A stretch of 37,428 bases of DNA from Deltaproteobacteria bacterium. GTDB lineage: Bacteria > Desulfobacterota > Binatia > UBA9968. The notes beneath the pieces are model-generated. The model did no database searches. It saw only the letters and a program-made list of their open reading frames with translations, and was not told where the DNA came from. The stretch spans positions 1-37,428 of the forward strand of contig VGTH01000051.1 in NCBI GenBank assembly GCA_016874755.1, read 5' to 3'. Numbering within the stretch: position 1 is the first letter of the stretch; every line of letters begins with the position of its first letter. Positions 5,759 to 33,134 of this stretch are shown piece by piece. Both the position numbers and the translations under genes were made by a program.

Positions 5759-6574
5759 TTATCTTCTTGATAAGTATTTTTGATAAACGTCGTCACGGCG
5801 ATTCTTTAGGAGAGGCAGTTTTTCTCTGACCTCGTCGACGAGGGCGAGGTCCGCTTCGACGACGGCCAGTCCTTCGCTATCACCTAGCTCGGCAAGTGTT
5901 CGGCCGAGCGGGTCGACCGCCATGCTGTGGCCAGTGTAGATATTGCCAACCTGATTGGGCGCAACCACGAAGCAACCGTTCTCTAGTGCCCGCGCTTTGA
6001 TCATGGTCTGCCAGTGCTCGACCTTCAAATCTCCTTGCACCCAGCCCGACGGCGCCACCAGCACGTTGGCGCCTTGCAGCGCCAACATGCGCGCCATTTC
6101 CGGAAAGCGTAGATCGTAACAGATCATCGTGCCGATGTTGGCCGCGGCGATCTTGAGCTGCGCTCCGAGCTCTGCGCCGGGGTGAAATTTGTCGGACTCT
6201 TTAAATCCAAAGGCGTCGTATAGGTGGAGCTTTCGATAGCTTGACGCGACCTTGCCGTCGGAGCCGATCCAAACCGCGGTGTCGTAGACGCGCTCTTTGA
6301 CTTGGCAGGTTTCGTAGATCGCCGCCAGGACGAAAAGACGCGCCTGCTTTGCGGCATCGCACAGCGGCGCGATGAAGGCGCCGTCTAGCGTTTCCGCCAT
6401 CTGGCTTAGCTCGGACGCACTCTGACTGCCCGGCGAAAAAGCCATCAGGAATTCCGGAAAGACGATGAGCTCGGCGTTTTGTTTTTTGGCCGCGCCGATC
6501 AGCTCAAGGGCCACCTGCAAATTTTCCTTCTTATCCGTTGTAGATTTTACTTGCGCGATGGCGATTTTGAGCAT
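5759..6574 (-). CDS. Carbon-nitrogen hydrolase (nitrilase superfamily, Nit/omega-amidase-like)
   Basis: The 271-residue product shows the nitrilase-superfamily triad in order: Glu in LIVFPEFLM, Lys in YRKLHLYDAF, and Cys in GTMICYDLRFPE. Members hydrolyse amides of small molecules; the closest look is the Nit1/Nit2 and omega-amidase branch. I place the start at the ATG at 6574 (MLKIAIAQV), where family homology begins. The open frame continues 22 codons further to 6640 but that part does not resemble the family and would almost touch the divergent MFS gene. Downstream, the methyltransferase gene follows at 6 bp. Confidence 0.9.
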   Translation of the reverse strand: MLKIAIAQVKSTTDKKENLQVALELIGAAKKQNAELIVFPEFLMAFSPGSQSASELSQMAETLDGAFIAPLCDAAKQARLFVLAAIYETCQVKERVYDTAVWIGSDGKVASSYRKLHLYDAFGFKESDKFHPGAELGAQLKIAAANIGTMICYDLRFPEMARMLALQGANVLVAPSGWVQGDLKVEHWQTMIKARALENGCFVVAPNQVGNIYTGHSMAVDPLGRTLAELGDSEGLAVVEADLALVDEVREKLPLLKNRRDDVYQKYLSRR

Positions 6575-8997: not shown

Positions 8998-10053
8998 TCA
9001 AACGTTTAGCTGGGTGCCGGCTTTTTTCTTGAGGATATTTTCCAGCACCTTGGCCCCCAGCGCCACATCGGCGACCCCCTGGCCGGCGTTGTTCTTGTAG
9101 AACGTGATCTGGTCGAGCCTCGTGCGGCCTTCGTTGTTGCCGGCGAGGATGGAGCCGATCTCGATCAGTTGCTCCCACTTGATGACGCCGCGGTTGACCG
9201 GGTCGAAGATATCGGCTTGCTCGTCTTGGACCGCCTGTTGGATCGACACGATGCCGTGCACGTTACTTTTTGCCAACGTCGCGTCGTCGATCTCACGCCG
9301 CTTGGCGGCGGTGAAGCCGCCTTTGACCAGGCCGACGTTGCTGCCGACGATGGTCGTCACATGCTGGCCCGGCTCGAGCAGCTGGCCGTCGAACACCGGC
9401 ACGCTCGAGTTGGTCGCGGCGAGGATAATATCCATGCCGCGCACGGCGTCGTCGGGTTTATCGACTGGGACGATGTTGATGTTGGTGATCGGTCCCATCT
9501 CATCGGCGAACTGTTTTCGATTGGCCGGATTGCGGCTGTAGACTTTGACCTCCGTCAATTTGCGCACCTGCATGAGCGCCAGGAGATGATTCTTGGCCTG
9601 GCCGGCGGCGCCAAAGAGGCCGAGGCGTTTGGCATCGGGCCGCGCTAAAATGTCGGTTCCCACCGCGCTGGTGGCCGCGGTGCGCAGGCCGGTGACCGCG
9701 ATGTTGTCGGGCAGCTCCGAGCAGGTGATCTCGCCGATGATGATGCCTTTCAGTTCGCCTTCGGCGGAATCGTAAAGCACGATGACGGGGTGATTGAGGC
9801 GCGGATAGACCTGCTCCTGCGCCATCGGCTTGACCCATTCGCAATGGGTCATCAGCCCCGTCGCTTTCGCCGCCGGCACGCCGCCCTGATGCACGCTGAC
9901 GCGCACACCCGTAGGAATGTGAATGCGCCGGCGCGGCGCATTGATCTGGGGATTTTCGCCCCACTCGCGAAAGCCGAGCCGCACGGCTTCGACGGCTTCC
10001 GACATGGTGACGATGCCGCGGATCTCTTGGGGGGTGACGAGAGTTGGGAACAT
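8998..10053 (-). CDS. Ornithine cyclodeaminase / mu-crystallin family protein
   Basis: The 351-residue product belongs to the OCD/mu-crystallin NAD(P)-binding family. Visible signs are the substrate-side segment GLMTHCEWVKP, a long first domain, and a Rossmann fold as RLGLFGAAGQAKNHLLAL (glycine-rich loop with AA in place of the common GxGxxA spacing), followed by EVKVYSRNPANRKQFADEM. Family members include ornithine cyclodeaminase, ketimine reductases and alanine dehydrogenase; the specific substrate is not clear. GGAGT lies just before the ATG. A palindromic repeat (10067-10164) separates it from the GST-like gene upstream. Confidence 0.88.
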   Translation of the reverse strand: MFPTLVTPQEIRGIVTMSEAVEAVRLGFREWGENPQINAPRRRIHIPTGVRVSVHQGGVPAAKATGLMTHCEWVKPMAQEQVYPRLNHPVIVLYDSAEGELKGIIIGEITCSELPDNIAVTGLRTAATSAVGTDILARPDAKRLGLFGAAGQAKNHLLALMQVRKLTEVKVYSRNPANRKQFADEMGPITNINIVPVDKPDDAVRGMDIILAATNSSVPVFDGQLLEPGQHVTTIVGSNVGLVKGGFTAAKRREIDDATLAKSNVHGIVSIQQAVQDEQADIFDPVNRGVIKWEQLIEIGSILAGNNEGRTRLDQITFYKNNAGQGVADVALGAKVLENILKKKAGTQLNV

Positions 10054-10167: not shown

Positions 10168-10731
10168 CTAAAGCGTCTTCGCCACCTCGGGCCGCGCAAT
10201 CAACGCTTCCCCCCAACGTTTGAGATTCGGGTAGTTGGCGTTGATCTCGACCGTGTAGCGCTGGCGCCGGGTGTAGAAGGGAATATAGGTGACGTCGGCC
10301 AAGGTCATATGCTTGCCGACGAGAAACTCTCGGCCGGTCATTTCTTTTTCGAGCGTGTCGAGATGCTGCTTCATGCGCTCGCGGGCTTTTTCGGGCTCGC
10401 GCTGCTTTTGCAGATCGGACGCTGTCGGATGCACCCGGCTATTGAAGAAGTCGACCCAGATTCTCACTTTGGAGCGCTCCACCAAGTCGCTCGGCAAAAG
10501 CCGCGGCTCGGGGAATTTCTCTTGGAGGTATTCGTTGATAATCGCGGATTCGTAGATCACCGCTCCATCATCAACCAGAACCGGGACTTTGCCGTAGGGA
10601 TTCTGCTGCACCAGATCGCTCGGTTTATTTTTCAGGTCGACCTCGATCAAGTCATAGGGAATGCGCTTCTCAGACAGGACAATCCTAGTCCTGTGCGCGT
10701 AGGGTCAGGTGTGAGCGGAATAGAGTTTCAT
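10168..10731 (-). CDS. Probable selenocysteine-containing SspA/GST-like protein
   Basis: Reading from the ATG at 10731 gives MKLYSAHT, then TGA at codon 9, then PYAHRTRIVLSEKRIP and an uninterrupted frame to 10168 (187 codons). SspA-type glutathione transferases have Cys exactly at this spot (CP[FY]xHR at the end of the first thioredoxin-fold strand). Downstream the thioredoxin half (NPYGKVPVLV, YESAIINEYL) and the helical GST half (LADVTYIPFY) are intact. A strong AGGAGGT (10739-10745) sits seven bases before the ATG, and a promoter-like pair lies at 10755-10783. A 7-bp hairpin begins ten bases after the TGA. Seen: all of this. Inferred: UGA is read as selenocysteine. Otherwise it is a single-nonsense pseudogene, or a product that starts at the TTG at 10650 without the active site. 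Confidence 0.8.
10674..10694 (-). promoter_or_regulatory. SECIS-like hairpin after the in-frame TGA
   Basis: On the coding (minus) strand ACAGGAC and GTCCTGT pair perfectly around the 7-nt loop TAGGATT. The stem begins 10 nt and the loop 17 nt after the TGA. Bacterial SECIS elements lie inside the coding region just after UGA with a G-bearing apical loop; here GG occupies loop positions 3-4, slightly later than the textbook first or second position. Confidence 0.65.
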
Positions 10732-10754
10732 CGGCGTGACCTCCTGTTTCTGCC

Positions 10755-10783: not shown

Positions 10784-10958
10784 ACCTCGTGTTGGTTGAG
10801 CCACTCCCGCAGTGCATCTCCGACTAGATTGAGAGCCAGCACGGAACTGTCGCCCTTCGTTTAGCATTGTGCCCACGATGGCTTCGGCGGCTCGACGCCG
10901 AGGCCCAAAAAACTCAAGCTGCCTTCGGCGACGATGGCCGCTGCTAGGCCGAGCCGTT
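10780..10958 (-). pseudogene. Decayed C-terminal piece of a dipeptide-type ABC permease (dppC paralogue)
   Basis: Read on the minus strand this encodes RLGLAAAIVAEGSLSFLGLG and VEPPKPSW, nearly identical to the intact permease at 12119-12919. One base is missing right after that tryptophan codon: restoring a G gives GTMLNEGRQF, matching the intact GSMLNDGRQF. About 18 codons are then deleted, and VLALNLVGDALREWL, the normal C-terminus, follows to a stop at 10780. The N-terminal two thirds are gone, replaced by the IS91-type remnant. It records either a former tandem duplicate of the importer or a copy moved by the transposon. Confidence 0.8.
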
Positions 10959-11635
10959 GAATACTGAATGTATTTTTCAGTATGCCGGCTTTCTGGTCAA
11001 GCGGGCGGGCTTTAAACTTAGCCGAGCCAACACTGGCGCGGTCACACTCATCCAGCGTTTCGGCTCGGCGGCCAATCTGAATGTTCATCTGCATTGCCTG
11101 GTGCTCGACGGTGTCTACCTAAACCGCGACGGCGTGCCGGTCTTGCACGAGGCGGCAGCTCCCACGGTGGAAGAGCTGGAAGTTTTACTCGCTAAGATTA
11201 TCACGCGCACCATGCGCCTATTGACACGCTTGGGCGCTGTCAGCGAAGAACCAGATCAGACATAGCTCGCCGAAATGGATACCGACGGCGCGCTCAAGGC
11301 TCTGCAAGTTGCCTCCTGCACTTATCGTATTGCGCTCGGCCCACGCGCTGGGCAGAAAGTGCTGAGCTTGCAAAGCCTGCCGAGCAGAGCCAGGGTGTCC
11401 GCCCCGGAGCTGCAGGTCAACGCGCACGGCTTTAACCTGCACGCAGCGGTGCGCTGGCGCGCCGATCAGCGTAAAGAACTCGAGCAGCTCTGCCGCTATA
11501 TCCACCGGCCGGCCCTCGCCAACGAACGGATCAAACGTAATCGCGCTGGCCAAGTCGTGCTGCAACTGAAGAGTCCCTACAAAGACGGCACCACCCATAT
11601 CGTCATGAGCTGCTTGTGCAAACTTTCTGAAAACA

Positions 11636-11744
11636 CACCACAGAGGTCACGGAGAACACAGAGGAAAAGACAGAGAGAAAAACTATTTTGAAAAAATCAC
11701 ACTCCCTCTCTCTTCCCTCTGTGAACTCCGTGTGCTCCGTGGTG
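11636..11744. repeat. 109-bp palindromic dispersed repeat inserted in the IS91-type remnant
   Basis: The left arm runs CACCACAGAGGTCACGGAG then AACACAGAGG; the reverse complement of the right arm runs CACCACGGAGCACACGGAG then TTCACAGAGG. The arms are about four fifths identical and lie around an AT-rich centre. It interrupts the transposase between the GTTHIVMS and CPNCGG segments, so it arrived after, or with, the decay. It is the full-length relative of the single arm at 2571-2614. Confidence 0.8.
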
Positions 11745-12118: not shown

Positions 12119-12919
12119 CTAGCGGCTGCCGAGCCGCTCCTGGAGGCCGTCGCCCACCAGATTCAGCGCCAAGACGGTAATCATGATCGCCAGTCCGGGG
12201 TAAGTGGTCAGGTGCGGCGCGACGAGCAGAAATTGTCGGCCGTCATTGAGCATGGATCCCCATGAAGGCGTTGGCGGTTCCACACCGAGGCCGAGAAAAC
12301 TTAGACTGCCTTCGGCAACGATGGCGGCGGCAAGGCCGAAGGTCGCTTGGATCATCAGCGGCGGCAGCAGGTTGGGGAGCAGATGGCGAAAAATGATTCG
12401 TCGTGGTGCCCCGCCGAGGGCTTGCGCTGCTTGAATAAACTCGCGCTCACGCAGCGCAAGGATTTCGCCACGCACCAGCCGGGCGTAGCCGGTCCAGCCA
12501 ATTAAACAAAGAGCGAGAATCACATGCTGCAGGCCAGGTCCCAATACCGCGGTAAACGCGATGGCGAGGAGAATGCCGGGAAACGCTAGCAGGATGTCGA
12601 CCACCCGCATAACGGCCAGATCGACCCAGCCGCCAAGATAGCCCGCCAAGGCGCCGAGGCAGAGCCCGATGGTGAGCGAGATGGTCACCGTGGCGATGCC
12701 CACCGTCAAAGAGATGCGACCGCCGTAAATCACCCGACTCAAGATGTCGCGGCCAAGCTTGTCGGTGCCCAATGGGTGGTCGCTGGAATAGCTGATCAAA
12801 TCGCGGTCGAGTTGTTGCCGGGTCGGTGGATAGGGCGCCAACAGCGGAGCGAACAGCGCGCTGGCGGCGAGCAGTAATAAAATCGCCGCGCCACTGATCA
12901 ACCAAGTTCTACTTGTCAT
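12119..12919 (-). CDS. Peptide/nickel-type ABC transporter permease (DppC-like)
   Basis: The 266-residue product is an inner-membrane permease of the DppC/OppC family with about six transmembrane segments. The N-terminal PLGTDKLGRDILSRVIYGGR is the family hallmark, and the EAA loop reads AAQALGGAPRRIIFRHLLPN, where the ATPase subunit docks. The C-terminus is typical (SFLGLGVEPPTPSWGSML). It overlaps the end of the DppB-like gene by 11 bases, so the two are co-translated. No ATPase genes follow; the IS91-type and permease debris lies directly downstream, which may explain a lost downstream part of the operon. Confidence 0.92.
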   Translation of the reverse strand: MTSRTWLISGAAILLLLAASALFAPLLAPYPPTRQQLDRDLISYSSDHPLGTDKLGRDILSRVIYGGRISLTVGIATVTISLTIGLCLGALAGYLGGWVDLAVMRVVDILLAFPGILLAIAFTAVLGPGLQHVILALCLIGWTGYARLVRGEILALREREFIQAAQALGGAPRRIIFRHLLPNLLPPLMIQATFGLAAAIVAEGSLSFLGLGVEPPTPSWGSMLNDGRQFLLVAPHLTTYPGLAIMITVLALNLVGDGLQERLGSR

Positions 12920-13832
12920 AGCTAATCCGTGGATCGACGACGCGGTAGAGTAAGTCGGTCAGCAGATTGACCAGAACGTAGGAGAGCGCAATCACCAACA
13001 CACAACCCTGCACCACCGGATAATCGCGGGTTTGGATCGCCTGCACGGTCAGCCGTCCAATGCCGGGCCAGGCGAAGACTGTCTCGGTGATGATCGAGCC
13101 GGCGAGCAAGCTGCCGAATTGCAGGCTCATGATCGTGATCACCGAGAGCAGCGCATTGCGCAGCGTATGTTTGAGCCAAACAAGTTGTTCTTTTAGGCCT
13201 TTGGCGCGAGCCGTGCGGACGTAATCGGCGTCGATCACCTGGAGCAAACTGGCGCGCAGGATGCGCGTGAGGATGGCAGCCATGCCGAGCCCGAGTGTCA
13301 GGGCCGGCAAGACGATCGATGTCAATGCGCCTCGGCCCGATACCGGCAGCCAGCCCAGTTGAATGGCAAACACGATCATCAAGAGCGGGCCGAGCCAAAA
13401 GTTGGGCATGGACAGGCCGAGCAGGGAAAAAGTCAGGGCGGCACGGTCGTTGATCTTTCCCTTGTTCATCGCCGCGCCGATGGCGAGTGGAAATGAGATT
13501 ACCACTGCCATTAGCATCGCGAAGGCCGTCAGCTCAACGGTCGCAGGCAAGCGAGCCGCGATCAGTTGGCCGACGCTCGCTTGCTCATAGAGCGATCGCC
13601 CAAGGTCGCCCTGCAGCAATCCGAGTAGAAAATTGCCGTACTGCGCGAAGAGCGGCTGGTCGAGACCGAGGGCGCGGCGCAGCTCTGCTTTGTCGGCGCC
13701 GCTGGCGGTTTCGCCGAGCATGACTTCGACGGGATCGCCCGGGACCAGGTGAATCAAAAAGAACACCAGCGTGATGGCGCCCAATAGCGTCGGCACAAGC
13801 AGCAGCAAACGATGCAGCAGGTAGCGTCTCAC
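12909..13832 (-). CDS. Peptide/nickel-type ABC transporter permease (DppB-like)
   Basis: The 307-residue product starts VRRYLLHRLLLLVPTLLGAI, the classic DppB/OppB opening, and continues with HLVPGDPVEVMLGE, GDLGRSLYEQASVGQLI and the EAA loop TARAKGLKEQLVWLKHTLRN. About six membrane segments are visible. I chose the GTG at 13832, which overlaps the stop of the binding-protein gene (GTGA); the frame is open upstream to 13934 but that part lies inside the binding-protein gene and has no family resemblance. It forms the transmembrane pore together with the DppC-like partner. Confidence 0.92.
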   Translation of the reverse strand: MRRYLLHRLLLLVPTLLGAITLVFFLIHLVPGDPVEVMLGETASGADKAELRRALGLDQPLFAQYGNFLLGLLQGDLGRSLYEQASVGQLIAARLPATVELTAFAMLMAVVISFPLAIGAAMNKGKINDRAALTFSLLGLSMPNFWLGPLLMIVFAIQLGWLPVSGRGALTSIVLPALTLGLGMAAILTRILRASLLQVIDADYVRTARAKGLKEQLVWLKHTLRNALLSVITIMSLQFGSLLAGSIITETVFAWPGIGRLTVQAIQTRDYPVVQGCVLVIALSYVLVNLLTDLLYRVVDPRISYDK

Positions 13833-15352
13833 GGGGTTACCGACACTTGCTTGAATGACACAAAGCTGCCGTCGGGGTAAGGGACGAATCCTTGCAAGTT
13901 GCGTTTGTGCGCGACGACATTTTTGACCCACCACAGCGGAATGTAGGGCAGCTCGCTGGCAAGAATCTGTTGCACTTGGCCGTAGATTTTTCTGCGTGTA
14001 AATAGGTCGGTTGTCGTCCTGCCATCTTCGAGCAGCGCGTCGAGCTGAGCATTGCTGTAGCGACCGCGGTTGTCGCCGTTGGGTGGAAAGCTCGCCGAGT
14101 GAAAAAGTTGGTAGTAAATATCGGGATCGTGAATGCCCACCCAGGCCAGTGAGAACAGGTGAAAGTTGCCTTTCTTGACGTCGCTAAAAAACGTGCCCCA
14201 TTCGTAGGTGCGTATTTCTAGCTCGATGCCCACTTGCGCCAGCTGTTCTTTCAACGCCTCGGCGATGCGCCGGCGCAAATCGATGTTGGTGGTCTTGTAG
14301 GACAGACGAAAGCGCGGCCGGGGGCCGTCGCCGTCAGGGTCGGGATAGCCCGCCTGGTCGAGCAACAGTTTCGCTTTGGCTCGATCGCGGGGCCAACCTG
14401 GCACTTGATCGTTGTAGGCCCAGTTGAGCGGCGAAAGCAGCCCGCTGGCGGCGACGCCAGTGCCGTTGAGCAAATGGCGGATGATCGCGTCGCGGTCGAT
14501 GGCATGGGCAAGCGCCCGGCGCACTCGCGCATCGCGCAAAATCGGCTGACTGCAGTTGATGCCGATGTATTGAAACGTCGTCCCCTGGTTGGCTTGGAGC
14601 GAGGCATTTTCCTGCTTGGCGAGCCAAGGGATGACCTCCGGCTCGATGTCGTTTTGCAAAAAATCGATGCTGCCTTTCTTGAATTCCAAAACCCGAACCA
14701 TGGCATCGGGAATCGACTTGAATACCAGGCCGAGAGCCTTCGGTCTGTTCTCCCAATAGTTGGCGTTGGCCTTGAGCATCACGCGCTCGCCGGGGTCGAT
14801 CTTTTCTAACATGAACGGGCCGGAGCCGGGCGGCGGCTGGCCGCTCGGACCGATGGCCGTGCCCGCCGGCACAACGCCGATGGTGAAATGCTCGGGAAAG
14901 GGCGCGTGCGGCTGGCTCAAACGAAAACGAATCGTGTGCGAGTCGAGAACGTCGATGCCTGCCAGCGCCTTTAGCAGGCTCCTTTTAGGCGAAAGATTTT
15001 TCGCATCGCCGATCGATTCGTAGGTGTACTTTACATCGGCCGCCGTCAGCAGCCTGCCGTCGTGGAATTTTACGCCCTCGTGCAGCTCGAAAAGATAGCT
15101 GCGCGCATTGGGCATGGTCCAGCGGCGCGCCAGCTCGGGCTGCAGCTGCGATTTTTCATCGACGCGCAAGAGCGCGTTGTAGATCAAGCCGCCGACGCGC
15201 GACGAGTTGGCATCGGTGGCAAAGCGTGGGTCCAGTTGCAGCGGAAAGCTCTCGATGCCGATGGTGATGTATCCCGGAGGGGGTTGCGCCGACGAGCCGC
15301 GGCAGCCGCTTAGGGCGAGCAAAAAAAACAGTAGGAGCAGAATGAGTTGCAA
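13829..15352 (-). CDS. Extracellular solute-binding lipoprotein, family 5 (DppA/OppA-like)
   Basis: The product (507 residues from 15352) is a family 5 periplasmic binding protein for peptides, nickel or similar ligands. A hydrophobic signal ends in the lipobox LALSGC, so it is anchored as a lipoprotein. Family marks include FPLQLDPRFATDANSS, LQPELARRWTM, GVKFHDGRLLTAADVKYTYE and VRRALAHAIDRDAIIRHLLN. The frame is open to a TTG at 15412, but codons upstream of about 15370 are a dispersed repeat, so I prefer the TTG at 15352 (MQLILLLLFFLL). Neither start has a clear ribosome site. It is first in a three-gene unit with the two permeases. Confidence 0.9.
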   Translation of the reverse strand: MQLILLLLFFLLALSGCRGSSAQPPPGYITIGIESFPLQLDPRFATDANSSRVGGLIYNALLRVDEKSQLQPELARRWTMPNARSYLFELHEGVKFHDGRLLTAADVKYTYESIGDAKNLSPKRSLLKALAGIDVLDSHTIRFRLSQPHAPFPEHFTIGVVPAGTAIGPSGQPPPGSGPFMLEKIDPGERVMLKANANYWENRPKALGLVFKSIPDAMVRVLEFKKGSIDFLQNDIEPEVIPWLAKQENASLQANQGTTFQYIGINCSQPILRDARVRRALAHAIDRDAIIRHLLNGTGVAASGLLSPLNWAYNDQVPGWPRDRAKAKLLLDQAGYPDPDGDGPRPRFRLSYKTTNIDLRRRIAEALKEQLAQVGIELEIRTYEWGTFFSDVKKGNFHLFSLAWVGIHDPDIYYQLFHSASFPPNGDNRGRYSNAQLDALLEDGRTTTDLFTRRKIYGQVQQILASELPYIPLWWVKNVVAHKRNLQGFVPYPDGSFVSFKQVSVTP

Positions 15353-15390
15353 AGACAGGCCACAGCAGAGCTGAAGGACGCTTCGGAATC

Positions 15391-15425
15391 CTTCGACAGG
15401 TCTCCGGACCAACGCATTGTCGAAG
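15391..15425. repeat. Palindromic CTTCGACA/TGTCGAAG extragenic repeat
   Basis: CTTCGACA (15391-15398) and TGTCGAAG (15418-15425) are perfect inverted copies around a GC-rich loop. This resembles the common CCTTCGACAGGCTCAGG-type repeat of environmental genomes. It lies where the N-terminal extension of the binding-protein frame would be. Confidence 0.65.
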
Positions 15426-31916: not shown

Positions 31917-31940
31917 CGGCTCTGGAGCGTGGTGAAGCTA

Positions 31941-33134
31941 ATGGCACTCACAGACATCGCGATCAAAAATCTTAAACCCAAGGAGCGCCTTTACAAGGCA
32001 TCTGATCGGGATGGTCTTTATGTGTCAGTGATGCCTAGTGGATTGAAATCATTTAGATTTGACTACCGATTTGATGGCAGGCGGAAAACGCTAACTGTCG
32101 GCCGCTATGGCGCTGAAGGTATTTCTCTCAGTGAGGCGCGTGAAAAGCTCACTACGATCCGACGCAAACTTCGTGACGGTATCGATCCAGGGTGGGGACA
32201 ATCTGACGGTATTAGCGACGGTATTGAAGCCACAAGAATCTCAGAATTCGCCGAAAAGTGGATTGAAAATGCGAATTTGGCAGACAGCACTTACCTCATG
32301 CGCAAAAGCATCTTGGATCGCGAGATTATTCCTAGGTTTGGAAATAAGCGGCTTGGGGCGCTCAAGGCTTCAGAGATCATAGATTTGTGCGATCAGATCG
32401 TGGCGCGGGGGGCACCCGCCACTGCCGTCCATGTGCGCGAGATCCTGAACCAGATCTATCGATATGCCGCCGATCGGGGCAGTGAAATCGACAATCCGGC
32501 GGCCAAGATCCGAGCGTCAGCAATCGCGACCTTCAAGCCTCGTGACCGAGCTTTAAGTCCGGATGAAATTGGAAAATTCTTTCCAGCGCTTGAGAGAAGT
32601 GCGACCCATCCAGCTCTCAAGATGGCGCTGAAGTTCGTGTTGTTGACCATGCTTAGAAAAGGCGAGCTCATTAATGCTAGATGGGATTGGGTGGACTTTG
32701 AGAAAGCCACTTTCAATGTGCCGGCAGAATTCATGAAGGCTAGGCGCCCCCACATTGTCTTTCTCTCAAAGCAGGCGATCGATTTGTTGGTTGGAATGCG
32801 CGCATGCGCCGGCGCCAGCCGATTTGTTCTTCCCGGCCGATATGATTCTGATCAGCCTATTTCAGCCGCTACTCTAAACCAAACCATTTCGTACGCGTTC
32901 AAGCGTCTCGATGCTGACGGCATAAAAATGGAACGATTCACCGTGCATGATTTAAGGCGGACTACTTCTACTTTGTTGCACGAGGCCGGTTACAACAGTG
33001 ATTGGATTGAAAAGTGTCTTGCGCACGAACAGCGAGGAGTACGCGCTGTATATAACAAAGCTGAATATGCCGATCATCGAAGGGTCATGTTGCAAGAGTG
33101 GGCTGATCGGATGGACTCATGGATCAGAGTTTGA
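31941..33134 (+). CDS. int: Tyrosine integrase with DUF4102 arm-binding domain (P4/CP4-57-like)
   Basis: The 397-residue product begins ALTDIAIKNLKPKERLYKA, the DUF4102 arm-type DNA-binding domain, followed by a SAM-like core-binding domain (about 105-190) and the catalytic domain. Catalytic residues fit: Arg in LRKGELINARW, His-Arg in VHDLRRTTSTL, His in CLAHEQRG and Tyr in VYNKAEYADHRR. I prefer the ATG at 31941 over the GTG at 31929 because family homology starts there. It sits about 240 bp behind guaA and reads away from it, as usual for its attL. Odd point: the linker near residues 80-95 (DGIDPGWGQ, SDGISDGI) is encoded by GACGGTAT repeats. Confidence 0.93.
   Translation: MALTDIAIKNLKPKERLYKASDRDGLYVSVMPSGLKSFRFDYRFDGRRKTLTVGRYGAEGISLSEAREKLTTIRRKLRDGIDPGWGQSDGISDGIEATRISEFAEKWIENANLADSTYLMRKSILDREIIPRFGNKRLGALKASEIIDLCDQIVARGAPATAVHVREILNQIYRYAADRGSEIDNPAAKIRASAIATFKPRDRALSPDEIGKFFPALERSATHPALKMALKFVLLTMLRKGELINARWDWVDFEKATFNVPAEFMKARRPHIVFLSKQAIDLLVGMRACAGASRFVLPGRYDSDQPISAATLNQTISYAFKRLDADGIKMERFTVHDLRRTTSTLLHEAGYNSDWIEKCLAHEQRGVRAVYNKAEYADHRRVMLQEWADRMDSWIRV
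32175..32224. repeat. GACGGTAT repeats inside the int coding sequence
   Basis: Copies are at 32175-32182, 32205-32212 and 32217-32224; the last two starts are again 12 bp apart. All are in the same reading frame and encode Asp-Gly-Ile, giving DGI three times in the linker between the arm-binding and core-binding domains. Confidence 0.8.

Follow-up and report, generated by a model that had tools for sequence, protein, structure and literature searches.

A predicted selenocysteine form of omega/SspA-like glutathione S-transferases in Candidatus Binatia

An in-frame TGA in a glutathione S-transferase gene

How should a gene be read whose frame is interrupted only by one TGA, nine codons from its start? 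The question is raised by a gene of the glutathione S-transferase (GST) type on a contig of a Deltaproteobacteria bacterium (assembly GCA_016874755.1, contig VGTH01000051.1), of which we analyzed the whole stretch of 37,428 nucleotides, called here the window. The gene (10168..10731, minus strand) runs from an ATG at 10731-10729 through 187 codons to a TAG stop. Codon 9 (10705..10707, minus strand) is the TGA that we read as selenocysteine (Sec), and human GSTO1 and SspA proteins have a Cys aligned with it. A sequence-only reading of this DNA had described the frame as open over 187 codons apart from this TGA, with no other damage and with AGGAGGT seven bases before the ATG. All of this was borne out: between 10731 and 10168 on the minus strand the TGA is the only interruption, with zero other stops or frameshifts, and the Shine-Dalgarno sequence AGGAGGT lies at 10739..10745 (minus strand) with a 7-base spacer.

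The mechanical list of open reading frames starts the gene at a TTG at 10650, giving 160 amino acids. When the TGA is read through, the Pfam domain GST_N_3 matches residues 3-76 with 79.3 bits (cut-off 22), against 42.9 bits for the TTG-start form, where the match begins at profile position 28. The first strand and the active-site helix are absent from this shorter form, so the loss that the same reading had foreseen for a standard gene caller is seen in the frame list, in the Pfam match and in the structural model. GST_C is also found (50.9 bits, cut-off 20.7), and with the N and C domains both over the Pfam cut-offs the predicted protein falls in the GST superfamily. The promoter-like pair that had been pointed out exists as one site (11000-10972, 9 of 12 matches, 0.2 such sites expected) but stands 241 bases upstream, inside a transposase remnant, and carries little weight as evidence for the gene.

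The TGA in related genes

Searching for relatives with the single protein as query confirmed nothing, and an alignment used as query gave 195, of which the best 80 were kept. In the 25 genomes of the same family, the matches were 47-72% identical over most of the protein, each with exactly one TGA. The search of 148 genomes of the class gave 40 matches at E <= 1e-38 in 32 genomes, and 40 of 40 hold one TGA; these are 39 members of the subfamily and one diverged copy (41-44% identical) in the genome G427. Together with a contig-end fragment in G005, the subfamily comprises 40 loci from 32 genomes, all 40 with TGA at codon 9 and none with Cys. One of the 32 TGA-carrying genomes is a single-contig assembly, and the source genome has a second TGA copy (C62:19340-19891), 52% identical to the window protein. 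A sample of 395 genomes of the phylum, which contained 16 of the class and was less useful than the class search, gave three matching genomes at E up to 1e-35, twice the own family with TGA and once G042 with Cys.

Orthologues with Cys or TGA at this column had been proposed as a check, and they were found, TGA throughout the subfamily and Cys or Ser in distant homologues. Over 121 loci, a set in which the same genomes are repeated, the column holds 68 TGA, 50 Cys and 3 Ser codons. The Cys homologues, 36-44% identical, come from Nostocales and other cyanobacteria, Gallionella, a Nitrosomonadales bacterium, an alphaproteobacterium and Dadabacteria, and also from one deltaproteobacterial metagenome-assembled genome (MAG) and from G042, of the same class as the window. 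Three other GSTs from genomes of the own family have Ser at the column. Random stops and frameshifts in close relatives, named beforehand as evidence against a selenoprotein, were looked for as well: the relatives share the same TGA and have no random stops. Their records are labelled Deltaproteobacteria bacterium, Candidatus Binatia bacterium, one Proteobacteria bacterium and Syntrophobacter sp. SbD2 (two loci, one MAG), from which we infer that the window belongs to Candidatus Binatia.

Selection was estimated on both sides of the TGA. Between the window gene and seven loci (six orthologous or close ones and the paralogue of its own genome), dN/dS at codons 10-13 and 21-187 was 0.09-0.33, several of the pairs being close to saturation at synonymous sites. 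Codons 1-8, with about five synonymous sites, allowed a value in 4 of the 7 pairs, and it was 0.08-0.26. At the protein level residues 10-16 are conserved, and so is much of the stretch 1-30. The gene is very probably intact despite its early stop signal, because the TGA and the signal for reading it are kept in all 40 of the closest relatives found.

A constrained hairpin after the TGA

This signal is a hairpin of the bacterial SECIS type (10675..10693, minus strand; stem CAGGAC/GTCCTG, loop TAGGATT), found within the region (10660-10710) where a search for a SECIS had been suggested, and constrained at synonymous sites. It starts 11 bases after the UGA, and its loop begins 17 nt after it. 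In the RNA of the subfamily, the stem is AGGAC/GUCCU with a loop around AGG(A/C)U; a U-U opposition at nt 21/27 widens the loop in the window, where most relatives have A-U. Arg14 and Arg16 are each AGG in 27 of the 27 aligned genes, while from codon 25 onward AGG accounts for 25 of 325 Arg codons. Excess synonymous identity over the same genes was +0.54 at codons 14-19, the run of six codons with the strongest constraint on silent sites, versus +0.06 at codons 25-187. Five of the seven stem pairs are invariant, and the covariation consists of two pairs (15-33 and 21-27) where two-sided changes keep the pairing, three cells in all. With the pairing in register 96.7% of the cells are paired, and sliding it by 1-3 columns reduces this to 28-45%.

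The strength of the fold goes with the TGA. Over nt 13-36 the median energy was -10.8 (range -7.1 to -11.5) in 44 Sec rows, -3.5 (range -0.7 to -8.4) in 25 chosen Cys rows and -3.3 in 10 Ser rows, the Sec and Cys ranges overlapping at their ends. In seven Cys homologues the AHRTR peptide is the same and both of its arginines are encoded by CGN; their fold is only -2.1 to -5.8. Among random synonymous recodings of codons 10-22, 24 of 20000 fold into as strong a hairpin as the window. Dinucleotide shuffles of three stretches folded as well as the window in 24/200, 3/200 and 7/200 cases, so that this test is less impressive for one of the three stretches (24/200).

According to PMC13188914, the bSECIS model has a stem of 4-16 bp, a loop of 3-9 nt, a distance of 16-37 nt from the UGA and an energy <= -7.5, with a G in the first two loop positions. 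The stem of 6-7 bp, the 7-nt loop and the 17 nt spacing of the window are all within this model, and its energy (-8.7 to -16.0, depending on the stretch folded) is lower than the limit; 42 of the 44 Sec rows are at or under -7.5. A G occupies one of the first two loop positions in 40 of the 44. In the window and 3 others it is third in the minimum-energy fold, in the window because of the U-U opposition at nt 21/27, and there it comes within the first two positions only if A22-U26 is counted as paired. Rfam, searched with the gene start, yielded three matches under their gathering scores, none of them a SECIS family.

The SECIS of E. coli fdhF is similar, a small hairpin behind a UGA, and its GGU occupies nt 22-24, numbered from the U of the UGA; the fdhF fragment used was confirmed in fdhF and is present in 5368 of 5426 E. 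coli genomes. The two differ in that the stem sequences are unrelated, the guanines here are G23-G24, and there is no counterpart of the bulged U17 of fdhF.

Selenocysteine machinery and the genetic code

The sequence-only reading had also asked for selA, selB, selC and selD in the source genome (5.56 Mb, 101 contigs, 99.55% complete). All are there over their cut-offs, selA with 600.3 bits (cut-off 267.9), selB with 411.4 (242.25), selD with 381.7 (125) and tRNA-Sec with 75.9 (47); selA, selB and selD lie side by side on one contig. Of the 28 window genes tallied, 14 end in TGA, so the code is standard. In the class, selA is over the cut-off in 29 of 32 genomes with a TGA-gene match and in 123 of 148 overall. 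It is thus common, so that its presence is necessary but not telling, and the association is weak evidence alone.

Three genomes (G010, G021 and G022) have an intact TGA gene that keeps the hairpin and neither selA nor selB over the cut-off. In G022 a tRNA-Sec scored 74.2 bits, and in G010 and G021 none was over the cut-off among 150 candidates scored of 555 and 473, respectively. G021 has a completeness rating of 100%. In all three, an assembly gap may be the cause, because selA, selB and selD stand next to one another in the source genome and could be missed together; loss of Sec decoding is the other possibility.

The selD of the source genome (L048, G000:C16:6375-7301, minus strand) itself shows an in-frame TGA, after KAAG. 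Sec-containing SelD proteins have Sec at such a position following KAAG, and the selenophosphate synthetase of this genome is probably a selenoprotein too.

Protein family, fold and proposed chemistry

An AlphaFold2 model from 25 sequences (pLDDT 93.3) has the fold of an SspA/omega-class GST. The best solved folds were the SspA homologues 4hoj and 4qq7, both with bound glutathione and among the best matches by sequence as well as by fold, and then tau GSTs. That the TGA takes the place of the redox Cys of SspA-type GSTs, as first proposed, agrees with the sequence alignment, in which SspA chains and human GSTO1 (1eem, 6pnm) put a Cys opposite Sec9; KLYSAHTUPYAHRTRIVL of the window protein aligns with RIYSMRFCPFAERTRLVL of the latter. 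The omega-class arrangement of a nucleophile just ahead of helix 1 in a CPFAERTR-like context is present, with Sec for Cys, and NKP is shared with GSTO1. The window protein differs from it in the Sec, in being bacterial and in its shorter length (187 aa).

The label SspA/GST-like given earlier holds for the fold and not for the name. SspA is the best NCBIfam name, yet the curated cut-off is 314 bits and the score 102.6. Of 27 subfamily members, 0 have the PHP motif, which serves in the contact of SspA with RNA polymerase and can be seen in the aligned chains from Burkholderia and Neisseria. Because of the low score and the missing motif, and with Sec for Cys as a further difference, we do not take the protein for SspA proper.

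The cysteine of omega-class GSTs forms a mixed disulfide with glutathione, and these enzymes have thioltransferase or dehydroascorbate reductase activity. The source genome has a glutathione synthetase over its cut-off (397.4 bits). Given the SspA/omega-like fold, the glutathione synthetase and the differences from SspA proper, we infer an omega-type, glutathione-dependent selenol oxidoreductase. In the mechanism that we propose, SelB with Sec-tRNA would decode the UGA of codon 9 as selenocysteine under the direction of the hairpin 11 bases on. By alignment and model, Sec9 would be located just before helix 1, where omega-class GSTs have their glutathione-reactive cysteine. The enzyme may then act as a thiol transferase, a deglutathionylase or a hydroperoxide reductase rather than as a classical conjugating transferase.

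Genomic neighborhood

Upstream of the gene on the minus strand are an OppC-type permease (12119..12919), an OppB-type permease (12909..13934, its listed start probably too early) and an oligopeptide-type, OppA/GsiB-like substrate-binding protein (13829..15412, listed start uncertain). We compared 15 of the 31 named TGA loci (L062-L075 and L101, 54-72% identical). Upstream and on the same strand, 12 have the substrate-binding protein, 12 OppB and 13 OppC, the last directly upstream of the Sec-GST, which follows about 30-200 bases past the end of the OppC match. In the window, the intact OppC and the Sec-GST are separated by a Y2 transposase remnant in two pieces (10957..11691, plus strand) and by a second, partial OppC 3' copy (10838..10952, minus strand; 78% identity in 116 aligned columns), which shows that rearrangement has taken place in this region.

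Next downstream is a gene of the ornithine cyclodeaminase/mu-crystallin family (8998..10053, minus strand), and further on a carbon-nitrogen hydrolase (5759..6574, minus strand); each is also downstream in 5 of the 15 compared loci. The best NCBIfam match of the hydrolase is deaminated glutathione amidase (245.1 bits, the cut-off of 355 not reached), and the substrate-binding protein matches GsiB among others, under cut-off; both names are hints at glutathione or peptide handling. In L069, L074 and the 16 remaining TGA loci, which include the second copies and the loci of the neighboring family, none of these neighbor genes was within the DNA examined. In the subgroup to which the window gene belongs, the enzyme might cooperate with the peptide-type ABC importer whose genes lie immediately upstream of its own.

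Elsewhere in the window there is a tyrosine integrase with an Arm DNA-binding domain at 31929-33134, and the open reading frames after it look like those of an integrated element.

Alternative explanations

That the TGA of codon 9 encodes selenocysteine, as the sequence-only reading had proposed, is strongly supported by its presence in the relatives, by the sel genes and by the constrained hairpin. The rearranged DNA just upstream could suggest instead a pseudogene, or the TGA a sequencing error, the gene being dead or truncated. This is highly improbable and is largely refuted by the relatives: the same TGA occurs in 40 loci of 32 genomes, including the single-contig assembly, dN/dS is far under 1, the window gene has no other stop or frameshift, and silent-site constraint peaks at codons 14-19. 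We consider it just as improbable that the functional product begins at the internal TTG and that the TGA merely ends a leader, with no Sec involved. The 160-aa frame does exist, but a Shine-Dalgarno sequence precedes the ATG, the conserved residues include the first GST strand and the active-site helix, both missing from the short form, and a leader would have no need of a fixed hairpin with AGG codons.

Reading of the TGA as another amino acid (Trp or Cys), through a changed code or a suppressor, would fit the Cys of the distant homologues. It is the alternative to which we give the smallest chance of all, considering that TGA ends half of the window genes tallied and that tRNA-Sec, selA, selB and selD are present. 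Somewhat more room, though still little, is left for the reading that Sec is right but that the protein is the RNA-polymerase-associated regulator SspA in a Sec form, not an enzyme. The NCBIfam name and the nearest structures speak for it; the score far under the curated cut-off, the missing PHP motif and the gene order of the subgroup, with a transporter, speak against it. A selenoprotein of the GST superfamily, with its UGA read by SelB under the guidance of the hairpin and with the probable chemistry of a glutathione-dependent selenol oxidoreductase, is the explanation in which we have very high confidence.

Relation to known selenoproteins

GST-like selenoproteins have been described from marine metagenomes with 4 sequences (PMC1088965, 2005) and later with 12 (PMC2398784), and are listed again in PMC9312934 and PMC13188914. 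According to PMC1088965, all of its new selenoproteins had bacterial SECIS-like stem-loops. The proteins found here resemble the marine ones in belonging to the GST superfamily (COG0625 / PF13409) with a predicted Sec. Compared by description only, the present group differs in coming from MAGs labelled Candidatus Binatia, Deltaproteobacteria and similar names, in having Cys in 0 of 40 loci and in standing, in part, behind an ABC transporter operon. "SspA" is absent from the main text of PMC13188914 and PMC9312934, and "Binatota" from PMC13188914. Among titles and the starts of abstracts in open-licence PMC, searches on Sec in Binatota/Candidatus Binatia, GST-like selenoproteins, SspA and omega GSTs listed none describing this group; one paper, PMC9999580, contains both the words Binatota and selenocysteine. 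The earlier doubt about how widely a Sec form is known is thus answered in two ways: Sec GSTs as a category have been known since 2005, but the present lineage is probably new and, in our assessment, unusually well supported.

Translated by the standard code, the window gene is left without its catalytic residue and without its first strand. The group provides a compact and well-supported example of a GST lineage with fixed Sec and offers a natural Cys/Sec comparison, in which the same peptide has the strong hairpin only with TGA. It gives a concrete target for the role of selenium in a GST active site, known to us only from a plant GST whose Sec form, made by chemical means, gained hydroperoxidase activity (PMC10812501); this gain also speaks for the explanation preferred here.

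Other predicted selenocysteine GSTs in the class

The diverged TGA GST of G427 (L142, contig C626) is single, comes from another family of the class and has the motif UPFAMRTR; in its hairpin the pairing is kept by G-C at 21-27 and by a G-U in the stem. Another subfamily of TGA GSTs, with UPWCQKVR, was found in three genomes (L157, L158 and L159, in G016, G512 and G002) and is about 30% identical to the window protein. Its stem (AGTGC/GCACT) is unrelated to that of the window, and GG is again at nt 23-24. For this subfamily, 29 other matches were listed, 43-48% identical and with no stop, and of the 17 whose codon 9 was read, 10 have Cys and 7 Ser. In a quick tree of 77 rows, three changes are required for Sec and the starred branches force at least two, the stars being less trustworthy with long rows and the deep order staying open; Gallionella, on a long branch, falls next to the main Sec rows, where the forks are open.

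A wider picture would join these observations, and we put it forward tentatively, at less than even odds. Sec would be fixed clade-wide in omega/SspA-like GSTs of Candidatus Binatia, with two to three copies in several genomes and partly within a peptide-importer operon. The enzymes would be glutathione-dependent selenoperoxidases or deglutathionylases for imported peptides or glutathione adducts, and Sec would have entered GST lineages of the class at least twice, with unrelated stems and the same GG position.

One Cys GST of the class (L162, in G524) folds at -8.4 kcal/mol over codons 13-20, the strongest of the 25 Cys rows. This hairpin, within the range of the Sec rows, is either chance or a former SECIS.
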